From Caulobacteraceae bacterium (GTDB taxonomy: Bacteria; Pseudomonadota; Alphaproteobacteria; Caulobacterales; Caulobacteraceae): 15,742 nucleotides of DNA. This document shows, in pieces, positions 1-15,167 of the stretch. The DNA is taken from assembly GCA_028291305.1 (NCBI GenBank), contig JAQGII010000366.1:1-15742 (forward strand). The letters are read 5' to 3'. The position numbers and the translations under genes were made by a program. The first letter of the stretch is position 1; each line of letters opens with the position of its first letter. The notes below the pieces were generated by a model. That model was not told the DNA's origin, did not search any database, and worked only from the letters and a program-made list of their open reading frames with translations.

Positions 1-2359
1 TGGGCGTCTCTACGTCCGGCAAGGCGCCCTGGCGGGAAACGGGCGGCGCCGCCGCGGCCGGCGGTTGGAGGGTGGCGATCAGCGCGTCCTGCGCCTGCTC
101 GGCCCGGACGGCCTCGGCGTCGCTGACGACCGCGAACACCACCGTGTCGCCAGGGGCGAGCTGGCCGACCTTCCACAGCTCCGCCTGGATCACCACGAAG
201 GGGCAGACGAAGCCGCCTAGCGAGGGGCCGTCCGGCCCCAGGATGATCGGCATGTCCCCTGTGAAGTCCACGGCGCCGATGGCGTAGGCGTTGTCGTGGA
301 TGTTGGAGGGATGCAGCCCCGCCTCCCCGCCGTCGCGGCGGGCCCACTGGGGCTTGGGCCCCACCAGCCGCACGCCGGTGCGGTTGGAGTTGTAGTGCAC
401 CTTCCACTCAGTGGAGGCGACCATGGCCATATCGTCCGGGGTGAAGAAGTCGGGCGCCCCGTGGGGACCGTAGAGGACGCCGATCCGCCACTCCCGGGTC
501 AGCGCCGGCTTGAGGGACCGCGCCAGCGGCGGGGAGGCGATCCCCATCGGGTTCCCCAGATGCAGCACATCGCCGGCGGCGAGCGCCCGCCCGCCGTGGC
601 CGCCGAACCCACCGAGGGTGAAGCTGGCGCGGCTGCCCAGGTAGGGCGGGGTGTCGAGGCCGCCGGCGAACAGCAGGTAAGCCCGCAGGCCCGGCCCAGT
701 CGCCCGGCCCAGCTTCAGCGTCTGGCCGGCCCCGACCGCCAGGGGCGCGTAGGGGGCCACGGGCTCGCCGTCGAGCCTGGCGTCCAGTTGCGCCCCGGTC
801 AGGCAGACCGTGGCGGCGTGATCGAACAGCAGGGTCGGGCCGAGGGCGGTGATCTCCAAGCCCGCAGCATCCTCGTCATTGCCGAGCAGCCGGTTGCCCA
901 GGCGGAACGCCAGGGCGTCCATCGGGCCGGAGGGCGGCACGCCTACGTCCCAGTAGCCCAGCCGGCCGGGGTAATCCTGCACGGTGGTCGAGGGGCCACC
1001 GCTCAGCACCCGCACGGTGTTGGGGGTGTAGGCGATCTCCGCCAGGGCCCGGGTCGACACCTGTCCTGAGACAAAGGCCTCGCTGCGCGCCACCGTCCGC
1101 AGCCAGCCGAGGTTGGTCTCAATGCCGGACAACCGCGTGCGATCGAGCGCCCGCTGAAGGGCCGTGACCGCCGCCGGTCGATCCGGCGCCGTCACGATCA
1201 GCTTGGCCAGCAGGGGATCATAGTAGGCGCTGATCTCGGCCCCGTCCGCCACCCAGGTGTCGACGCGGACGTCGGCCGGGAAGCGGGCCTCGGTCAGAAG
1301 GCCCGAACTGGGGCGATAATCCTGATGCGGATCCTCCGCATAGAGGCGGACCTGGATAGAGGCGCCTTGCGTGCGGCCGCTCCAGGCGTGCATGGGCGAG
1401 AAGTCGCCGGCCGCGCCGCGGATCATCCATTCCACCAGATCGAGGCCGGTGACCTGTTCGGTGACGCCGTGCTCGACCTGCAGCCGCGTATTGACCTCGA
1501 GAAAGAAGAAGTCGTCGCGGTCGGGGTCGTAGAGGAACTCCACCGTGCCCGCCGAGCGGTAGTGGACCGCCGCCGCCAGGCGCACGGCCGCATCCGTGAG
1601 GGCAGCGCGGGTCGCCTCAGGCAGGTGCGGCGCGGGGGTCTCCTCGACCACCTTCTGGTTGCGCCGCTGCAGGGAGCAGTCCCGTTCGCCGAGTGCGATC
1701 ACCCCGCCCTGGCCGTCGCCGAAGATCTGCACCTCGATATGGCGGGCCCGGCGCACGTAGCGTTCCAGGAAGACGCCGCCGTCACTAAAATTGCCCGCCG
1801 CCAGCCGCGCGACCTGGGCGAAGCCGTCCAGCACGCCGACGGCGTCCTCGCAGATCCGCATGCCGATGCCGCCGCCGCCGGCGGTGGCCTTCAGGATCAC
1901 CGGGAAACCGATGGCCTCGGCGGCCCGGGCCGCAGCCTGGGCGTCTAGGAGCAGATCCGTGCCCGGCGCCAGCGGTATGCCGTTCGCCTGGGCCAGGTTG
2001 CGGGCGACGTGCTTGAGGCCGAAGGCGCGCAGGTTGTCGGGCGTGGGGCCGATGAAGGCGATGCCGGCCGCGGCGCACGCCTCGGCGAAGGCGGTGTTCT
2101 CGCTGAGGAAGCCGTAGCCGGGATGGATGGCCTCGGCGCCCGTGCGCCGAGCCGCCTCCAGGATGGCGTCGATGTTGAGATAGCTGAGCGCCGCCGCGGC
2201 CGGGCCGATATGCACCGACTCGTCGGCCTGCGACACGTGCAGCGAGCCGGCGTCGGCGTCGGAGAACACTGCCACGGAGCCGATGCCCATGGCCCTCAGT
2301 GTACGGATGATCCGGCAGGCGATGGCGCCCCGGTTGGCGATCAGGACCTTGGTGAACAC
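1..2359 (-). CDS. Biotin-dependent guanidine/urea carboxylase, C-terminus missing (runs off the left edge)
   Basis: ATP- and biotin-dependent carboxylase, usually annotated urea carboxylase; context favours guanidine as substrate. The visible 786 codons start with a biotin carboxylase domain (about 1-450): the N-terminal [16 protein letters not shown] motif, the ATP-grasp glycine-rich segment [11 protein letters not shown] with Lys157, and the [10 protein letters not shown] motif with Glu288, the numbering of E. coli biotin carboxylase. From about residue 450 a carboxyltransferase/allophanate hydrolase subunit 2-like domain follows ([19 protein letters not shown], then [11 protein letters not shown]). 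The second carboxyltransferase half and the biotinyl-lysine domain lie beyond position 1; the family is about 1200 residues long. The start is GTG, directly after the TAG stop of the preceding gene, so translation is probably coupled. Asp698, in AVDFTGD, is at the position where I recall urea carboxylases having Asn (Asn1330 of the Kluyveromyces enzyme); Asp is associated with guanidine. Family assignment is near certain, substrate likely. Confidence 0.95.
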
Positions 2360-2992
2360 CTACTCCACCACGATCATGCGCACCGGCGTGGGATTGAAGC
2401 CGTTGCAGGGATTGTTGATCTGGGGGCAGTTGGAGACGACCACCCTCAGGTCCATCTCGGCGCGCAGATCGACGTACAGGCCGGGCGCCGAGATGCCGTC
2501 GACGATGCCCAGCGCGCCGTCCGCCTCCACCGGCACGTTCATGAACCAGTTGATGTAGGAGACCATGTCGCGCTTGCCGCGGCCGTGACGGCCGTTGGCT
2601 TGCAGGAAGTTGTCGACGCAGCTGTGCTGGGCCTTGGTGTGATGGCCGTAGCGCAGGGTGTTGGACTCGCAGGAACAGGCGCCGCCGATGGTGTCGTGGT
2701 AGGCCACGGCGGTGTCCATGACCGTGGCCATGGGCGCGCCTTCGTTGGACAGCAGCATGCTGCCGGTGCGCAGAAAGATGTTCCCTTGTGCGGCGATGGT
2801 GTCCTGAGCGCTGTAGCGCTCGGCCCCGTCGTGCAGGTTGTAGGCGAGGAAATCGACCGCCTGGTTGCCTTCCAGGTCGACGATCCGCAGGGTCTGGCCC
2901 TTCCTGAGCGGATGGTCCCAGGGCGCACGGGCAGGCACGATTTCGTCGTGCACGATGCGGCCCGGCAGGCCCTGAACAGCGGCGTCCTTCAT
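2360..2992 (-). CDS. DUF1989 protein, urea amidolyase-associated protein 2; probable carboxyguanidine deiminase subunit
   Basis: A 210-residue soluble protein of the DUF1989 family (urea carboxylase-associated protein 2 type). Visible family marks are DLEGNQAVDFLAYN (about 39-52), the segment around GGACSCESNTLRYG (103-116), INWFMNVPV, and the C-terminal SNCPQINNPCNGFNPTPV (187-204). Cys106, Cys108, His117, His118, His123, Cys125, Cys189 and Cys196 could make a metal or catalytic site; this is inference. Published work showed that the paired DUF1989 proteins next to such carboxylases form the heteromeric carboxyguanidine deiminase CgdAB, converting carboxyguanidine to allophanate and ammonia. 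I leave the symbol empty because I am not sure which subunit is A or B. The gene starts 3 nt after its paralogue upstream, and its stop abuts the carboxylase start. No signal peptide or membrane segment is seen. Confidence 0.9.
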   Translation of the reverse strand: MKDAAVQGLPGRIVHDEIVPARAPWDHPLRKGQTLRIVDLEGNQAVDFLAYNLHDGAERYSAQDTIAAQGNIFLRTGSMLLSNEGAPMATVMDTAVAYHDTIGGACSCESNTLRYGHHTKAQHSCVDNFLQANGRHGRGKRDMVSYINWFMNVPVEADGALGIVDGISAPGLYVDLRAEMDLRVVVSNCPQINNPCNGFNPTPVRMIVVE

Positions 2993-2995
2993 GCC

Positions 2996-3823
2996 CTACC
3001 TGCGGTAATAGTCGTCGACGTTGAGGAAGGCGCGGAGCCCTTCCGGAGTCCTGTCGCGCACCGGATCGGCCTCGCCGGCTGGCTCTCCGCGCCAGGCGGT
3101 GACTCGCACCGGGGTTATGGCGTAGTCCGCTCGGGGATCGAGCACATGCGGGCAGTTGGCCAGGACCACGATGACATCCATTTCAGCGCGCAAGGTGACG
3201 CTGCGGCCCGGCGCGAACGGCCCGGCGTCCAGGCTCACGGCCCCGTCCCCCGCGACCGTCACGGCCTTGAACCAGTTGATGCAGGGATGGATGTCGGCCC
3301 GGCCGAGGCCGTGCTTGGCCAGGGCGATGCCGAAACGGTCCCGGGCGTTGGGATGGGCGCCATGGTTGAAGCCGTCGCCGTACTTCCTCGCGTTGGACGC
3401 CTGACTGGAGGCGCCGCAGAAGGCGTCGGGCGCCGGGGCGTCCGTCTCCAGGATGCTGGCCAGCACCCGGCCCATGTCGGACAGCAGAAGGCCGCCCTGG
3501 CCAAGGTAGGCGTTCCACTGCACCTTTAGCGTGTCGGCGACGTTGAGCCGTTCCACCGGCGTCGCGGCGTTGAACAGGAGCGTGGAGACGCAGGCGTCCC
3601 CATGAATGTCCTCAAGCTTCAGCCGCGCCCCGCGGCTGAGGATTCTGGACGCGTAACCGCCGGCCGCGAGGGTTTCTCGCCAGACCAGGCTTTGCCGATC
3701 GACGTCCGCGGGCAGGTCGTCGGCCCGCCAAGGCGGCAACACCGGCATGGCCTCGACGTCGGCGCCGGCCATGGCGCGAGCGTGGGCCTGGGCGCCGTAA
3801 GGATCGGCTGTGTTGGCGCCCAT
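2996..3823 (-). CDS. DUF1989 protein, urea amidolyase-associated protein 1; probable carboxyguanidine deiminase subunit
   Basis: A 275-residue paralogue of the next gene (urea carboxylase-associated protein 1 type). It shares the DUF1989 layout: KLEDIHGDACVSTLLFNA near residue 80, a GGLLLSDMGRVLAS segment, SNARKYGDGFNHGAHPNARDR, HPCINWFKAV, and ANCPHVLDPRADYAITPV near the C-terminus. The Cys/His-rich centre of its partner is only partly kept (CGASSQASN instead of CSCESN), so the two subunits probably have different roles in one complex. Expected function, from published work on these gene pairs, is deimination of carboxyguanidine to allophanate as CgdAB. I chose ATG at 3823 rather than 3841: GGGGAG lies 7 nt before it, whereas the 3841 ATG overlaps the regulator gene by 14 nt and has no well-placed ribosome site. 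The gene begins 4 nt after the regulator stop. Confidence 0.9.
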   Translation of the reverse strand: MGANTADPYGAQAHARAMAGADVEAMPVLPPWRADDLPADVDRQSLVWRETLAAGGYASRILSRGARLKLEDIHGDACVSTLLFNAATPVERLNVADTLKVQWNAYLGQGGLLLSDMGRVLASILETDAPAPDAFCGASSQASNARKYGDGFNHGAHPNARDRFGIALAKHGLGRADIHPCINWFKAVTVAGDGAVSLDAGPFAPGRSVTLRAEMDVIVVLANCPHVLDPRADYAITPVRVTAWRGEPAGEADPVRDRTPEGLRAFLNVDDYYRR

Positions 3824-3827
3824 CGCG

Positions 3828-4286
3828 CTACTCCCCGCCATCCCCGTGGAAATGCAGCGGCGGCAGCAGGGCCGTGGTCGTGACCAGCTTGATCTGCTGC
3901 ACCCCGCGCACCCGGCGCAGGTCGTCGCACAGCTGCTGCAGCCGCTCGGACGGCCCCTGGACCAGCAGCACCTCCAGCGACTGGTCGTCCTCCAGGAAGA
4001 CGTGTTGCGAGGAGATGGTCTCCTTCAGATAGGTCAGCTGGGTCTGGGCCAGCGCCTGCCGGACACGGCCCTTGTCCGCCCGGTAGATGAGGGTGACGGT
4101 GCCGGCCAGGACGGCGTCTGGCGAACGCTCGGAATGTTCGGCCAGCTCATGGCGGATCAGCTCGGCGATCATCTGCGAGCGGCTCGGCAGCCCCCGCTCG
4201 GCCACCATGGCGTCGAGTTGCGCCAGGAGCTCGGCCGGCAGGCTGACGCTGAGGCGGGCGAGCAGAGAGACAGGGTCCATGTCCAT
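3828..4286 (-). CDS. NikR-like ribbon-helix-helix regulator with a degenerate nickel site
   Basis: A 152-residue DNA-binding protein with the NikR layout. The N-terminal ribbon-helix-helix has strand RLSVSLP (11-17) and helices through SRSQMIAELIRHEL (35-48). A C-terminal ACT-like domain (about 60-140) has the GTVTLIYRADKG and SLEVLLVQG strands. Aligning by eye to E. coli NikR, the nickel ligands His76, His87, His89 and Cys95 become Leu84, His95, Phe97 and Ser103, so only one of four remains and high-affinity nickel binding is unlikely. It is the first gene of the operon, 4 nt before the DUF1989 gene, and a perfect inverted repeat lies 17 nt upstream of its start, so it probably controls its own operon; the effector is unknown. 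No Shine-Dalgarno sequence precedes the ATG at 4286; a second ATG 6 nt downstream is an alternative start. Fold confident, signal unknown. Confidence 0.88.
   Translation of the reverse strand: MDMDPVSLLARLSVSLPAELLAQLDAMVAERGLPSRSQMIAELIRHELAEHSERSPDAVLAGTVTLIYRADKGRVRQALAQTQLTYLKETISSQHVFLEDDQSLEVLLVQGPSERLQQLCDDLRRVRGVQQIKLVTTTALLPPLHFHGDGGE
3831..3836 (-). promoter_or_regulatory. Ribosome binding site GGGGAG deciding the DUF1989 start
   Basis: GGGGAG on the minus strand, overlapping the end of the regulator gene, 7 nt before the ATG at 3823. It supports that start over the ATG 18 nt upstream. Confidence 0.65.
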
Positions 4287-4292
4287 GACCCA

Positions 4293-4320
4293 TGACTACA
4301 ATGTTATTACGTCGCGTCAA
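4293..4320 (-). promoter_or_regulatory. Candidate promoter of the guanidine operon
   Basis: Reading the minus strand, TTGACG (4320-4315) resembles a -35 box, followed after 16 nt by TAGTCA (4298-4293) as a weak -10. Transcription would then begin at about 4286, the A of the regulator's ATG, giving a leaderless message. This fits the missing ribosome site. The -35 box lies inside the spacer of the inverted repeat at 4303-4332. Inferred from sequence only. Confidence 0.4.
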
Positions 4321-4332
4321 ATTCGTAATAAC
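4303..4332. promoter_or_regulatory. Perfect inverted repeat, candidate operator of the NikR-like regulator
   Basis: GTTATTACG (4303-4311) and CGTAATAAC (4324-4332) are exact reverse complements separated by 12 bp. The AT-rich arms stand out from the GC-rich surroundings. Overall length is 30 bp, close to the 28-bp E. coli NikR operator (two 6-bp half-sites separated by 16 bp), as expected for a tetrameric ribbon-helix-helix regulator. The repeat overlaps the candidate promoter, so binding would repress. It may also affect the divergent gene at 4596. Confidence 0.7.
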
Positions 4333-4595
4333 GCGCCGCTTGTGGGCCGCCGTTTTGTGGACGGTTGAGGGGCACGGGCGCCTAGTGGTTAGGCAGCCGG
4401 AACGAGCCCGAGGAAGGCCCACCCCTCCCGTTTCGGTCAACCGAGGGCGAGATGGCGGCCATGCCTGGCGTTCGCGCTTAGCCCACGGCCCTCTCGCAAC
4501 GGCAACCCTGCGGTCTTCGCGGTCTTCGCCCCTAGCCTTGGGGCGGGGGAAACGGCTAGCTATATGGCAATCGATTGGTCCCGGTTCCCTTGGTC
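4333..4595. other. Intergenic region between the divergent guanidine and two-component operons
   Basis: I see no convincing gene here; open frames crossing it look like chance GC-rich frames. It holds a small hairpin GCCTA-gtggt-TAGGC (4380-4394), a 9-bp tandem repeat GCGGTCTTC x2 (4510-4527), and a 6-bp inverted repeat CTAGCC/GGCTAG (4532-4537 and 4554-4559). TATATG at 4563 could serve as a -10 box for the regulator gene at 4596. I looked for guanidine-I (ykkC) riboswitch landmarks on the minus strand and did not find them. Confidence 0.5.
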
Positions 4596-5276
4596 ATGCC
4601 GCGCATTCTCGCCATCGAAGACGACGAAACCACCGCGCAGGAGATCGTCGCCGAGCTGAGCCGTCGAGGATTTGACGTGGAATGGGCCGCCGACGGGCGT
4701 AACGGCCTTGTCCGCGCCGTGAGCGGCGATTTCGATGCAGTGACCCTGGACCGCATGCTGCCCCACGTCGACGGGCTGACCATCGTCAGCGTGATGCGCA
4801 ACACAGGGATCAACGTCCCGGTCCTGATGATCAGCGCCTTGACCGAGGTCGACGAGCGGGTCCGCGGCTTGAGGGCGGGAGGCGACGACTACCTGACCAA
4901 GCCGTTCGCCTCTGAGGAAATGGCCGCGCGACTGGAAGTGCTGTTGCGGCGCGCGCGGATACAGGCGCGCGAGACCGTGCTGAGGGTGCAGGACCTGGAG
5001 CTTGATCTGGTCACTCGCGAGGTGCGCCGCGGCGGCCGCGAAATCGCGCTAATGCCCACCGAGTTCAAGCTGCTGGAATTCCTGATGCGCAACTCCGGCG
5101 CGGTGCTCACTCGCACGATGATATTCGAGGCGATCTGGGGTTATCACTTCGACCCTGGGACGAACCTGATCGACGTGCACCTGAGCCGTCTGCGCCGGAA
5201 GGTGGATCCGCCGGGGAGCGAGCCTTTGATCAAGACGATCCGCGGCTCCGGATACGCTCTAAATGCGTCGTTCTGA
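4596..5276 (+). CDS. OmpR/PhoB-family response regulator
   Basis: A 226-residue response regulator with a complete receiver domain and a winged-helix output domain. The acidic pocket is Glu8-Asp9-Asp10, the phospho-acceptor is Asp52 (TLDRMLP), the switch residue is Ser80 (MISALTEVD), and the conserved lysine is Lys102 (YLTKPF). The winged helix (about 128-225) shows LMPTEFKLLEFLMRN, the IDVHLSRLRRKVD recognition region and the terminal TIRGSGYAL. The start is ATG at 4596 (MPRILAIEDDE); an in-frame TTG at 4575 would only add seven residues lacking conservation marks. No Shine-Dalgarno sequence is visible. The kinase gene overlaps its 3' end by 14 nt, so the two are a cognate pair. The RND efflux genes downstream on the same strand are its likely targets, by analogy with other efflux-linked two-component systems. 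Confidence 0.95.
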   Translation: MPRILAIEDDETTAQEIVAELSRRGFDVEWAADGRNGLVRAVSGDFDAVTLDRMLPHVDGLTIVSVMRNTGINVPVLMISALTEVDERVRGLRAGGDDYLTKPFASEEMAARLEVLLRRARIQARETVLRVQDLELDLVTREVRRGGREIALMPTEFKLLEFLMRNSGAVLTRTMIFEAIWGYHFDPGTNLIDVHLSRLRRKVDPPGSEPLIKTIRGSGYALNASF

Positions 5277-6624: not shown

Positions 6625-7284
6625 ATGCATCTGCTCTATGTCACCGACCGTCAGATAGACGCCTATGTCGTCAAGGCGCTGCGGGAGGCGGGCCACGTCG
6701 TCGAGCCCACGGACCAGCCGGCGGACGGTCTGGCGATGGCGTCGGCCGGCGACTACCCGGCGATGGTCTTGGACTGGTGGGCGCGGCCGGCGGAAAGCGC
6801 CGCCCGTTTCGCCCAAGCGGGGCCGTGGTCGCGGGTGGTCGTGATCTGCGCGATCGCAGACGAGGCTGAACGCATCGAAATCTTCAAAGCCGGCGCCGAC
6901 GCCTGTTTCATCCGTCCGGCGCCCTTCATCGAGCTGGCGGCGCGGCTCGAGGCGCTTGACCGCATGATCCAGCGCGCCCGGCCCGCCGCCTCGGATCAGG
7001 TCGCGGGCGAGATGATCGCAGCCGAACAGGCGGTCCGCCTCGATGGCCGAACCATCCCCTTGTCGGCGCGGGAGTTCCGCGTGATGTCGTATTTGGTCGC
7101 CCACGCGGGCGAGGTGATCAGCCTCGACCGGCTACAGCAGCAGATCTGGGGCGACGTCGCCGAGCCCAGACCGGATCTGGTCCAGGCCTGCCTTTCGCGG
7201 CTGCGCCGAAAGCTGGCGACGGCAGGCGCCCCCGGGCGCCTGCGGACCGTGGCAGGCCACGGCTACGTCATCGACGCCCGATGA
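6625..7284 (+). CDS. Atypical OmpR-family regulator with a degenerate receiver domain
   Basis: A 219-residue protein built like an OmpR response regulator but with an altered receiver. The usual acidic pair is TDR here, leaving only Asp8. A candidate phospho-acceptor Asp50 is kept (VLDWWARP), but the Ser/Thr switch is replaced (VVICAIADE) and the conserved Lys is Arg97 (CFIRPAPF). The winged helix (about 120-219) looks functional: LSAREFRVMSYLVAHAGEVIS, VQACLSRLRRKL and TVAGHGYVIDAR. It starts 6 nt after the kinase stop, so it belongs to the same transcript. It may bind DNA without phosphorylation, or dimerise with the canonical regulator at 4596. The ribosome site is weak. It ends about 190 nt before the efflux genes. 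Family is clear; mode of signalling is inference. Confidence 0.9.
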   Translation: MHLLYVTDRQIDAYVVKALREAGHVVEPTDQPADGLAMASAGDYPAMVLDWWARPAESAARFAQAGPWSRVVVICAIADEAERIEIFKAGADACFIRPAPFIELAARLEALDRMIQRARPAASDQVAGEMIAAEQAVRLDGRTIPLSAREFRVMSYLVAHAGEVISLDRLQQQIWGDVAEPRPDLVQACLSRLRRKLATAGAPGRLRTVAGHGYVIDAR

Positions 7285-7474: not shown

Positions 7475-10400
7475 ATGCTTTGGATTGTCCGCGTTGCGCT
7501 GCAGCGCCCCTACACCTTCGTGGTGCTGGCGCTGCTTATCATGATCATCGGACCGCTGGCGGCGCTCAACACGCCTACCGACATCTTCCCCAACATCCGC
7601 GTCCCGGTGATCGGCGTGGCCTGGCAGTACGCCGGCCTGTCGCCCGACGAGATGGCGGGCCGGATCATCGCCCCCTATGAGCGGACGCTGACGACCACGG
7701 TCAACGACATCGAACATACCGAGAGCACCTCCCTGCCGGGGATGGGCATCGTCAAGATCTACTTCCAGCCCGGCGTCGATATCCGCACGGCCACGGCCCA
7801 GGTGACCGCGGTCTCGCAAAGCATCCTGCGGCAGTTGCCCCCCGGGGAGACGCCGCCGCTGATCCTCAACTACAGCGCCTCCACGGTGCCGATCCTGCAG
7901 TTGGCGACGTCAAGCCACAGCATGTCAGAACAGCAGGTCCTGGACCTGACCCAGAATTTCATGCGCCCGGTGCTGACTTCGGTGCCCGGCGCGGCGATCC
8001 CCTATTCCTATGGCGGACGCGTTCGCCAGGTGCAGATCGACCTCAATCCCCAGGCGCTCCAGGCCAAGGGCCTGTCGGCCCAGGATGTCGAGAGCGCCAT
8101 CGGCGCCCAGGACCAGATCCTGCCGGCGGGCACGACCAAGATCGGCTCGCTGCAGTACACGGTGAAGCTCAACGACTCGCCGGACACCGTGCAGGAATTG
8201 AACGATCTGCCGGTCAAGACGGTGGGGGGGGCCACCATCTACATTCGCGACGTCGCCCATGTGCGTGACGGCTCGCCGCCCCAGCAGAGCCTTGTCCACG
8301 TGGACGGCGCGCGCGCGGTATTGACCACGATCCTCAAGGCCGGGTCGGTCTCGACCCTGTCCATCATCCAGGGGGTCAAGGACGCGCTGCCGAAGTTCAA
8401 GGAAACCGTGCCCCGCGACTTCCAGATCACGCCGCTCAACGATCAGTCGCTGTTCGTGAACGCCGCGATCTCCGGCGTGATCAGGGAAGGCGTGATCGCC
8501 GCGGCTCTGACCAGCGTGATGATCCTGCTGTTCCTTGGAAGCTGGCGGTCGACCCTGATCATCGCCACCTCGATCCCGCTGTCGGTCCTGTGCGCGCTCG
8601 CGGGCCTGTCGATGGCGGGCCAGACGCTGAACATCATGACCCTGGGCGGGCTGGCCTTAGCCGTCGGCATCCTGGTCGATGAGGGCACGGTGACCATCGA
8701 GAACATCAACTGGCATCTGGAGCAGGGCAAGGACGTCCACACCGCCATCCTCGATGGCGCTCAGCAGATCGTGGCGCCCGCGTTCGTCAGCCTGCTCTGC
8801 ATCTGCATCGTCTTCGTGCCGATGTTCGCCTTGAAAGGCGTCGCCGGGTTCCTGTTCGTGCCGATGGCGGAGTCTGTGGTGTTCGCCATGATCGCCTCCT
8901 TCGTCCTGTCGCGGACACTGGTTCCGACGATGGCGATGTATCTCCTCAAGCCGCACGTGCATCCAGGAGAGAGCCTGCAGGACGCCGATCGGGATGTTCA
9001 TTCGACGCCGCCGTCGCGCAATCCGCTGGTGCGTTTCCAGCGCGGTTTCGAAGCCGGGTTCGAACAGTTCCGCGAGGCCTATCGCAACCTGTTGGCGGTC
9101 GCCCTGAAGCACAGGCGGGTCTTCGTGACCGGCTTCCTTTGCGTCGTCATCGCGTCGTTCGGCCTTACGCCGTTCCTCGGCGTCACCTTCTTCCCTTCCG
9201 TGGATTCCGGACAGATCACCCTGCATGTGCGCCCGCCCGTCGGCACGCGCATTGAGGACGCCGCAGCTATGTTTGGCGATATCGAACAGCAGATCCGCCA
9301 GGCGATCCCGCAGAAGGAGCTGACATCGGTCGTCGACAACATCGGCCTGCCCGTCAGCAGCATCAACACGGTCTACAACAACTCGGGCGTGATCGGTTAT
9401 CAGGACGGCGACATCTACATTCACCTGAGCGACAAGCATCACCCAACGGCCGATTACGTGCGCAAGCTGCGTCAACGGCTGCCGGCCGCCTTCCCCGGCG
9501 CGACCTTCTCCTTCCTGCCCGCCGACATCATAAGCCAGATCCTGAACTTCGGCGCGCCGGCGCCCCTGGACCTGCAGATCACCGGCCCGGACCAGAAGGC
9601 CAACCAGAACTATGCGATGGAGCTGCTGCGGCGGATGCGGACCATTCGCGGGATCGCTGACGCGCGCATGCAGCAGTCGATGGACAATCCGCAGCTGCGC
9701 GTCGACATCGATCGGTCCCGGATGGCCCAATTCGGCCTGACCGAGCGGGACGTGACCAACAGCGTCACCACCTCGCTGGCCGGCAGCACCCAGACCGCGC
9801 CGGTCTTCTGGCTCAATCGCAAGAACGGGGTCTCCTACCCCGTCGTCGCTCAGACTCCGGAGTATCAGGCCGATACTCTGGCGAAGCTGGAGAACATCCC
9901 GATCACCGGCGCCGCGCCGGGTTCCGGCCTGCAGGTGCTGGGCGGCCTCGGCAAGATCACCCGCGAACAGACGCCCGCGGTGGTCAGCCATTACAACGTC
10001 CAGCCGGTCATCGACCTGTTCGCCACAACGCAGGACCGGGATCTCGGCGGGGTCGCGGGCGACGTCCAGGCGCTGATCAAAGCCACCGCCAAGGATGCGC
10101 CCAGGGGGTCCACCGTCACCCTGCGCGGCCAGGTGACGACCATGAACACGGCCTTCGCCGGCCTGGGCTTCGGTCTGCTGGGCGCGATCGTCCTGATCTA
10201 TCTGATCATCGTCGTGAACTTCCAGTCGTGGCTGGACCCGTTCGTGATCATCACCGCCCTGCCGGCGGCGCTGGCGGGCATCGTCTGGATGCTCTTCACC
10301 ACCCATACCAACCTTTCGGTTCCCGCTCTCACAGGCACCATCATGTGCATGGGCGTCGCCACCGCCAACTCGGTCCTGGTGATCAGTTTCGCCCGCGAAC

Positions 10401-13418: not shown

Positions 13419-13553
13419 CCACCAGCCGGCGCCAGCTTGCAACGCTGATCCTGCCTGCGGCCTAGGCAGATTCCGCCGGAAGCGCCCCAACCACCCCTGC
13501 GCAGCTTGTTGGCCGGTCAAGCCCGTGCCGTGCTCGGTCCCGCACCAACGGGC

Positions 13554-13562
13554 GAGGGGAGA
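13554..13562 (+). promoter_or_regulatory. Ribosome binding site deciding the amine oxidase start
   Basis: GAGGGGAGA ends about 7 nt before ATG at 13569. It supports that start over an in-frame upstream start at 13506, which would add 21 residues in front of the Tat signal. Confidence 0.7.
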
Positions 13563-13568
13563 CTTCCA

Positions 13569-15167
13569 ATGACCGACGAGGCCGAGGGCGCGCCGAGCCG
13601 GCGGGACATGTTCCGCATGATCGGCGTCATGGGCGGCGCCAGCGCCATGTACATGGCCATGGCCGAGCTCGGCCACGCCGAGACCACGGACGCGTTCCGG
13701 GGGCCGGCCAAGCTGTCCAGGCCGCCGCCCGGAGCCTCGGTGCTGATCCTCGGCTCGGGGGTCGCCGGCATGGTGGCGGCGATGGAGATGCGCGACGCGG
13801 GCTACAAGGTCCAGGTGCTCGAGTACCAGGACCGGCCGGGCGGGCGGAACTGGTCGCTCTACGGCGGCGACACGTTCACCGAGCTCGGCGGCGCCACCCA
13901 GCACGTGCAGTTCGATCCGGGCATCTACCTGAACCCCGGCCCGTGGCGCATCCCCTACCACCACCAGGGCATCCATCACTACGCGGCGCGGGTCGGCGTG
14001 CAGATGGAGCCGTTCATGCAGATCAACTTCAACGCCTACGTCCATTCGACCAAGGCCTACGGCGGCAAGCCCAAGCGCTACCGCGAGGTCCAGGCCGACT
14101 TCCAGGGCCACGTGGCCGAACTGCTCGGCAAGTCCGCCCAGCAGGGGGCGCTGGACCAGGCGGTGAGCAAGGAGGACCGCGAGGTCCTGATGGAGGCCCT
14201 GCGCAGCTGGGGCGCCCTGGACGGCAACTTCCAATATACCAAGAGCCTGGCCGCCTCGAACCGGCGCGGCTTCGCCAAGGACGTCGGCGGCGGCCTCTCC
14301 GCCGTGCCGGTCCCCTCCGATCCTGATCCCCTGAGCCAAGTGCTCAACGGCCGCCTGTGGACCGCCATCGCCCAGATGAACGACCACATGCACCAGTATT
14401 CGATCTTCCAGCCCAAGGGCGGCATGGGCCAGATCGGCAAGGCCATGGGCCGCGAGCTCGGCCCCCTGATCCAGTACAACTCCAAGGTCGTCGACATCCA
14501 TCAGGACGCCAAGGGCGTCACCGTCACCTACGTCGACACCAAGACCGGCGGGCCGCCGCGCACCGCCACCGCCGACTGGTGCATCTGCACCATCCCCCTG
14601 CCGGTGCTGAGCCAGATCCCGATGAACGTGGGCGCGCCCCTGCAGGCGGCCATCAACCACATGGGCTACCACCCCTCGATGAAGGTGGGGCTGCAGTTCA
14701 AGCGCCGCTTCTGGGAGCAGGACGAGCAGATCTACGGCGGCATCACCTACACCGACCAGCCCAACGTCTCGGTCGGCTATCCCAACTACGACTACTTCTC
14801 CCGGGGCAAGGGCATGCTGCTGGGCGCCTATGTCTCGACGCCGGAGTCCTACGCCTACGCCGCCATGCCGCCGGAACAGCGCATCAAGGAGACCCTGCAC
14901 TGGGTGTCCCAAATCCACCCCCAGGCGGTGGCCGAATACGAGTGCGGGGCGGCGGTGGCCTGGCACCGGGTGCCGTGGATCCTGGGTTGCGCCAGCACCT
15001 GGACCGAGGAGACGCGGGCCAAGCACTACGACAACCTCTGCGCCATCGACGGCCGCATCGTGCTGGCCGGCGAGCACGCCTCCTACATCGGTGGCTGGCA
15101 GGAGGGCGCGGTGACCTCGGCCACCGACGCGATCAAGCGCATCCACCAACGCGCGATGGGGGCCTAG
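13569..15167 (+). CDS. Tat-exported flavin (FAD) amine oxidase/dehydrogenase
   Basis: A 532-residue flavoprotein of the monoamine oxidase family, expected to oxidise an amine or amino acid to an imine in the periplasm. The N-terminus has a twin-arginine signal (SRRDMFRMIG, Arg11-Arg12) followed by a hydrophobic stretch to about 33. FAD binding is shown by GSGVAG (62-67), ERxGGR-like YQDRPGGRN (to Arg93) and the C-terminal VLAGEHASYIGGWQEGAV segment. Lys372 (HPSMKVGLQF) matches the active-site lysine near flavin N5. At the second aromatic-cage position, a Tyr in human MAO-B, it has Trp510. The cytochrome c gene begins 2 nt after its stop, pointing to cytochrome c rather than oxygen as electron acceptor, as shown for nicotine oxidoreductase NicA2 with CycN. 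The native substrate cannot be read from sequence; tryptamine-, tyramine-, polyamine- and L-amino acid-type activities are all possible. Confidence 0.93.
   Translation: MTDEAEGAPSRRDMFRMIGVMGGASAMYMAMAELGHAETTDAFRGPAKLSRPPPGASVLILGSGVAGMVAAMEMRDAGYKVQVLEYQDRPGGRNWSLYGGDTFTELGGATQHVQFDPGIYLNPGPWRIPYHHQGIHHYAARVGVQMEPFMQINFNAYVHSTKAYGGKPKRYREVQADFQGHVAELLGKSAQQGALDQAVSKEDREVLMEALRSWGALDGNFQYTKSLAASNRRGFAKDVGGGLSAVPVPSDPDPLSQVLNGRLWTAIAQMNDHMHQYSIFQPKGGMGQIGKAMGRELGPLIQYNSKVVDIHQDAKGVTVTYVDTKTGGPPRTATADWCICTIPLPVLSQIPMNVGAPLQAAINHMGYHPSMKVGLQFKRRFWEQDEQIYGGITYTDQPNVSVGYPNYDYFSRGKGMLLGAYVSTPESYAYAAMPPEQRIKETLHWVSQIHPQAVAEYECGAAVAWHRVPWILGCASTWTEETRAKHYDNLCAIDGRIVLAGEHASYIGGWQEGAVTSATDAIKRIHQRAMGA

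Follow-up and report, generated by a model that had tools for sequence, protein, structure and literature searches.

The window analysed here (the whole stretch of 15,742 nucleotides, from a Caulobacteraceae bacterium) carries on its reverse strand a closely packed set of genes in the order nikRL-UAAP1-UAAP2-carboxylase. The gene nikRL (3828..4286), recognised from its open reading frame, Pfam matches and a structure model, encodes a NikR-like regulator of 152 amino acids with a ribbon-helix-helix (RHH) and an ACT-like domain. It overlaps by 14 bp the gene for UAAP1 (2996..3841), a DUF1989 subunit matched by profile TIGR03425 (290 bits, over the cut-off), which is followed after 3 bp by the gene for the other DUF1989 subunit, UAAP2 (2360..2992; TIGR03424, 329 bits, over the cut-off), and then, with a gap of 0 bp, by a urea/guanidine carboxylase gene recognised by profile match (2..2359) and truncated by the end of the window, of which 786 amino acids could be read. 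We take UAAP1 and UAAP2 to be CgdA and CgdB, the two DUF1989 subunits of carboxyguanidine deaminase. An earlier note on this DNA had called nikRL the first gene of a guanidine operon, and the overlap with UAAP1, followed by UAAP2 and the carboxylase, bears this out.

Residue D698 of the carboxylase (codon 266..268, reverse strand) aligned with N1330 of the urea amidolyase of K. lactis (5i8i), 1330 being the number of the specificity position in that enzyme. Under the Asp/Asn rule, as set out in part of PMC12186494, Asp at this position marks a carboxylase of the guanidine type, and a urea carboxylase was ruled out by this residue. We compared the operon with a set of 79 loci holding 89 nikRL copies, which are the best of 195 matching genome-contig stretches, the window itself being excluded. 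A clustered carboxylase ORF was present in 71 of these loci, and in the 59 where the specificity column could be aligned it was Asp in every case (59/59). UAAP1 lay directly 3' of nikRL in 75 of the 79 loci, the exceptions being L020, where the contig ends, and L063, L076 and L078, where other nikRL copies adjoin 2OG-Fe(II) oxygenases. UAAP2 and the carboxylase mostly followed, as far as the contigs reach, and an allophanate hydrolase ORF (cluster c7) stood after or near the carboxylase in 17 loci. In sphingomonads the nikRL operon usually lies after an importer of the 'putative urea ABC transporter' type, and some of these bacteria have a second nikRL before that importer.

The NikR fold and the loss of nickel ligands

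The assignment of NikRL to the NikR fold, proposed earlier from the sequence, was confirmed by several comparisons. NikR_C scored 73.7 bits against a cut-off of 22 and RHH_1 37 bits against one of 20.5, and these matches together with the AlphaFold model gave the domain layout of NikR, with an N-terminal RHH and a C-terminal NikR_C ACT-like domain. The closest solved relative by sequence was P. horikoshii NikR (E 7.1e-24), and NikR chains were the top fold matches to the model. The next fold relatives included ACT domains in acetohydroxyacid synthase (AHAS), RelA-type and phosphoglycerate dehydrogenase chains, and the ACT-domain protein TM1266 (2nzc) aligned with the model over the ACT-like residues 58–138 only. 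Five NCBIfam NikR models matched, all under their cut-offs (the best at 99.5 bits vs 105). NikRL is homologous to NikR and probably binds DNA in the NikR manner.

According to part of PMC7055735, NikR binds GTATGA-N16-TCATAC, holds nickel through H87, H89, C95 and H76', and has a K+/low-affinity site that includes E30 and D34; the equivalents of the nickel ligands in H. pylori NikR are given in part of PMC9860126. In alignment with the E. coli MG1655 sequence, H76, H87, H89 and C95 correspond in NikRL to L84 (codon 4035..4037), H95 (4002..4004; the sole ligand retained), F97 (3996..3998) and S103 (3978..3980), all on the reverse strand and exactly as the earlier note had read them. Among the 89 homologues, position 84 was A, G, S, L, V or others, with His in 2; position 95 was His in 79 and Asn in 10; position 97 was Phe in 80, Val in 6 and Leu in 3, and never His; and position 103 was Ser in 79 and Ala in 10, and never Cys. 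A second set, the best 120 of 2138 protein hits, never had His at position 84 and had H (110) or N (10) at 95, F (113), L (6) or I (1) at 97, and S (110) or A (10) at 103; both sets consist of close relatives, of about 70% identity or more. The ten N95 copies also carry A103 and A93, which we read from the alignment as changes that go together in the former nickel pocket.

The K+/low-affinity site was altered as well, with E. coli E30 replaced by Q (Q38) and D34 by E (E42) in 89/89 copies, and an Arg stood at E. coli position 116 in all 89. New invariant residues lie near the old ligands in sequence (E89, Q94 and E99) and further along (C120); the last was Cys in 89/89 copies and in all of the best 120 of 2138 hits, and its column was Ala in the 10 compared NikRs (all except L136). 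The ACT-like part was tightly kept, with 29 of 40 invariant columns of a 58-sequence alignment at residue 60 or beyond. Judged by its residues, NikRL is not a nickel sensor, and the name 'nickel-responsive transcriptional regulator', which many of the best 120 of 2138 hits bear, is probably wrong for them.

The possibility that this copy is merely a decaying NikR with fully liganded close homologues, which the earlier note had raised, was ruled out: none of the 89 copies had a complete four-ligand His3Cys site, the ligand loss was common to the whole sampled clade, and the remainder of the protein was strongly kept. NikRL formed a single clade (51 rows) separate from 11 other NikR sequences with support 100/99, with long branches, on which its placement beside P. 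horikoshii NikR rests. Two of those 11 sequences, the NikR_C proteins L136 (G041) and L137 (G355), are also without some nickel ligands; ligand loss, as read from these sequences, has therefore occurred outside the NikRL clade too. P. horikoshii NikR gave 4009 hits, and the best 120 of these held no usable intermediate between NikR and NikRL, those with a named source being mostly from Pyrococcus or Thermococcus. A conserved TTALLPPLH-like tail (nikRL residues 136–145) was absent from the other NikR sequences compared.

A palindrome before genes of guanidine import and degradation

Upstream of nikRL lies a perfect inverted repeat (4303..4332), the candidate operator GTTATTACG-N12-CGTAATAAC, which has 9-bp arms with 12 bp between them, ends 16 nt before the start codon, is kept in relatives, and contains in its spacer a gene-strand TTGAC that might be a -35 element. 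A score of at least 12/16 was reached in 68 of the 89 nikRL upstream regions vs 4 of 1780 shuffles. In 61 of these 68 cases the operator ended 16–20 nt before the start codon and in 38 its spacer held TTGAC; no -10 element was recognisable at nikRL promoters. The family consensus, GTATTACG-N12-CGTAATAC, equals in layout the E. coli nikA operator, which in the fetched sequence reads GTATGACG-N12-CGTCATAC. Its half-site is one base off that of nikA and the half-site of the window copy two, having also T for the outer G; the fifth base was T, not G, in 136/136 half-sites and the first was G in 76/136. NikRL thus resembles NikR of E. coli, H. pylori and P. horikoshii in its RHH and ACT-like domains and in a candidate 28-bp two-half-site operator of the same spacing, and is unlike it in having no His3Cys site, an altered K+ site, a conserved LLPPL(H) tail, and a guanidine regulon in place of nickel genes.

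The other 21 nikRL copies scored below 12 within 80 nt upstream. Of these, 15 belong to or precede an importer operon that has a site of its own, which leaves L033 (a second copy), L035, L041, L063, L076 and L078. In one genome (G472), two divergent NikRL copies (L098 and L102; 62–65% identity) had operators changed in both half-sites (GTGTTACG or GTAACAC type), namely GTGTTACG-N12-GGTAACAC and GTGTTACG-N12-CGTAACAC, and this paired change is as expected if a symmetric protein binds the DNA.

Across the 79 loci (891 kb) we found 104 sites scoring at least 13/16, and none with the reversed control. Of these, 65 precede nikRL; another 26 lie close to where the gene for the substrate-binding protein (SBP) of an importer begins, and a divergent 2OG oxygenase shares 3 of these 26. 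TonB receptors lie near 4 more, and the last 9 have no annotated neighbour. At least one site was present in 77 of the 79 loci; L047 and L071 reached only 12. A genome scan allowing at most one mismatch detected sites in 17 of 20 genomes with NikRL (two of which, G353 and G399, look like one genome), in none of 5 same-family genomes without NikRL, and nowhere with the reversed control. The genomes with sites had two or three each, in most cases on a single contig and inside a stretch of about 11 kb. The three siteless genomes (G437, G448 and G486) yielded matches of 13–14/16 in a looser scan; at L096 (G483) the stretch scanned held no site of 12 or more.

In the genome of the window contig C500 holds a second site, which lies 45 bp upstream of the start codon of the SBP gene in an SBP-permease-ATPase importer (TIGR03427, 556 bits), with an allophanate hydrolase gene convergent to it. 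In G400 and G274 the stretch that separates the importer from a divergently oriented 2OG oxygenase gene holds two sites; of the two in G333, the second overlaps the called oxygenase ORF at its 5' end. The gene that follows the oxygenase is 44% identical between its L124 copy and its riboswitch-controlled counterpart in L150, both of which have no Pfam match, and the oxygenase of L124 with this next gene resembles, by arrangement alone, the MgdH/MgdL pair described in part of PMC12508155. The L126 site (G416 C6) had no recognised neighbour, and two 13/16 matches in the riboswitch-type locus L141 coincide in part with repeated GTATTAC motifs, and we regarded them as chance matches. The Caulobacter sRNA CC1840 (RF01521) matched at 8113–8207 of L123, within a few kb of the operon for guanidine import.

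NikRL and guanidine riboswitches

The guanidine-I and -II riboswitches (RF00442 and RF01068) control the same kinds of genes, namely an ABC importer, UAAP1/2, guanidine carboxylase and sometimes a 2OG oxygenase with its partner; they are leader RNA aptamers, whereas the NikRL system consists of a protein and a candidate DNA palindrome. The earlier note had seen no guanidine riboswitch, and this stood: none was detected in the whole window at the Rfam gathering score or in 2300–4700 at E<=5. A hidden riboswitch was ruled out at the Rfam gathering level for the window and 33 NikRL loci and, for guanidine-I, in 17 genomes.

We surveyed genomes for UAAP2, matches under the family cut-off (e.g. G863, G157 and G122) being excluded before riboswitches were counted. 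In a sample of 240 genomes from the class, UAAP2 scored over the cut-off in 8. The genome of the window (79% complete) was one of these, with NikRL adjacent to UAAP2 and no guanidine-I found; the other 7 had no adjacent NikR_C, and all 7 had guanidine-I on the same strand, 2.7–3.8 kb upstream. NikRL was adjacent in 8/8 UAAP2 genomes of the window's order (160 genomes sampled), and among 147 genomes of Sphingomonadales, the order of G405, exactly the 9 UAAP2 genomes had NikR_C, adjacent to UAAP2 in each. Guanidine-I was found in 0/17 NikRL genomes of these two samples by a genome-wide search for this aptamer that scored at most 91 or 150 first-look candidates per genome, so that a weak aptamer could be missed.

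A sample of 398 genomes from the phylum had UAAP2 over the cut-off in 41, which comprised six of the NikRL type (G000, G274 and four shared with the Sphingomonadales sample by identical coordinates), G042, and 34 that were fetched. All 34 fetched operons carried a guanidine riboswitch, which was guanidine-I in 33 and only guanidine-II in L168, and none had a NikRL match within the stretches fetched. In the Pseudomonadota samples, guanidine riboswitches were thus present in 41/41 comparable operons without NikRL. Only one change between the types of control is needed on a quick UAAP2 tree (SH-aLRT 86), and the split of 41 vs 17 therefore probably goes back to one evolutionary replacement rather than to 17 separate events.

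The two kinds of control met in one of 29 NikRL genomes (G401), a MAG in which a single contig (L176, G401:C141:11000-26000) carries the operator, NikRL, UAAP1, UAAP2, carboxylase, allophanate hydrolase, ABC genes, a guanidine-I riboswitch and a TonB receptor.

The signal sensed by NikRL

Our preferred reading, to which we give a probability of roughly 0.7, is that NikRL is a guanidine-responsive, NikR-derived repressor of guanidine import and degradation that stands in for the riboswitches. RHH dimers of NikRL would bind the 28-bp palindrome (of the GTATTACG-N12-CGTAATAC type), as in NikR, at its own promoter, at those of the guanidine ABC importer and of TonB receptors, and in some species also at that of a methylguanidine-hydroxylase-like operon, and would there block RNA polymerase. 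Guanidine (or methylguanidine) entering the cell would bind the ACT-like domain, in or close to the former nickel pocket, and the ligand-bound protein would leave the DNA and so switch the genes on; nickel would play no part in this repression. We call NikRL a repressor because a protein bound so near the start codon would be expected to hinder transcription. Control of the guanidine regulon by NikRL appears very probable, and its direct ligand is probably guanidine or methylguanidine. The regulon and its operator are well supported by comparison among genomes, and together with the mutual exclusion of NikRL and riboswitches they strongly support the guanidine-linked signal that the earlier note had envisaged; that the molecule itself is guanidine we infer.

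It is rather unlikely, but the most credible of the alternatives, that NikRL controls this regulon and senses an intermediate or product of the pathway (carboxyguanidine, allophanate, urea or ammonium) instead of guanidine. Proteins of the ACT fold commonly bind small metabolites of other kinds, ACT domains are among the next relatives of the model, the ligand cannot be named from operon position alone, and a downstream metabolite as ligand would yield an identical genomic picture. However, the regulon takes in uptake genes and, in some species, the methylguanidine-hydroxylase-like gene, which act upstream of the intermediates; guanidine aptamers elsewhere control the same kinds of genes; and NikRL and guanidine-I control occur side by side on the MAG contig described above.

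That NikRL still senses nickel or some other metal, at a site rearranged to involve, say, H95, the invariant C120 or the H145 tail, and so ties guanidine use to metal supply, seems improbable. H95 is retained in most copies and C120 in all, but H97 and C103 occur in none of the 89, the ten Caulobacter-type copies with N95 and A103 keep the same operon and operator, the K+ site has changed too, and no nickel genes were noticed nearby on casual inspection of the neighbourhood. There is a similarly slim chance that NikRL is a constitutive, ligand-free autorepressor and co-regulator and that another regulator such as NtrC brings about induction, which would fit the clear site near its own start codon and the free variation of position 84 in the old pocket, but not the tight conservation of the ACT-like part, and which would leave guanidine-specific induction in NikRL genomes without a known sensor, unlike in the 41 riboswitch-type operons.

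If NikRL does respond to guanidine as we propose, a metallosensor would have been turned to sensing a small organic cation, and protein and RNA sensors would have swapped places over the same genes. According to part of a 2025 review (PMC12186494), riboswitches are the only known guanidine receptors besides transporters and enzymes, and guanidine-binding transcription factors may yet turn up. The open-access papers that we searched held no report of a NikR-like guanidine regulator; the portion of PMC2667541 covered held no link between NikR and urea carboxylase, and a word search of PMC11410670 returned neither NikR nor 'regulator'. As the first protein known to sense guanidine, NikRL of Caulobacter- and Sphingomonas-type bacteria is a strong candidate, and a concrete and easily tested one in Caulobacter, a genetic model. 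We consider it likely that it is the first protein transcription factor to sense guanidine(-ium), a metal sensor turned organic-cation sensor that replaced riboswitches across an entire regulon in one bacterial lineage, with the ancestral operator layout kept.

Elsewhere in the window, 6625–7281 encodes an OmpR-type regulator whose receiver domain, perhaps degenerate, scored under the Pfam cut-off (17.4 vs 30.1 bits), and which adjoins a response regulator/kinase-like pair and an RND-efflux-like gene set. The region 13506–15167 reads, in translation only, as a flavin amine-oxidase-like ORF followed by a cytochrome-c-like reading.
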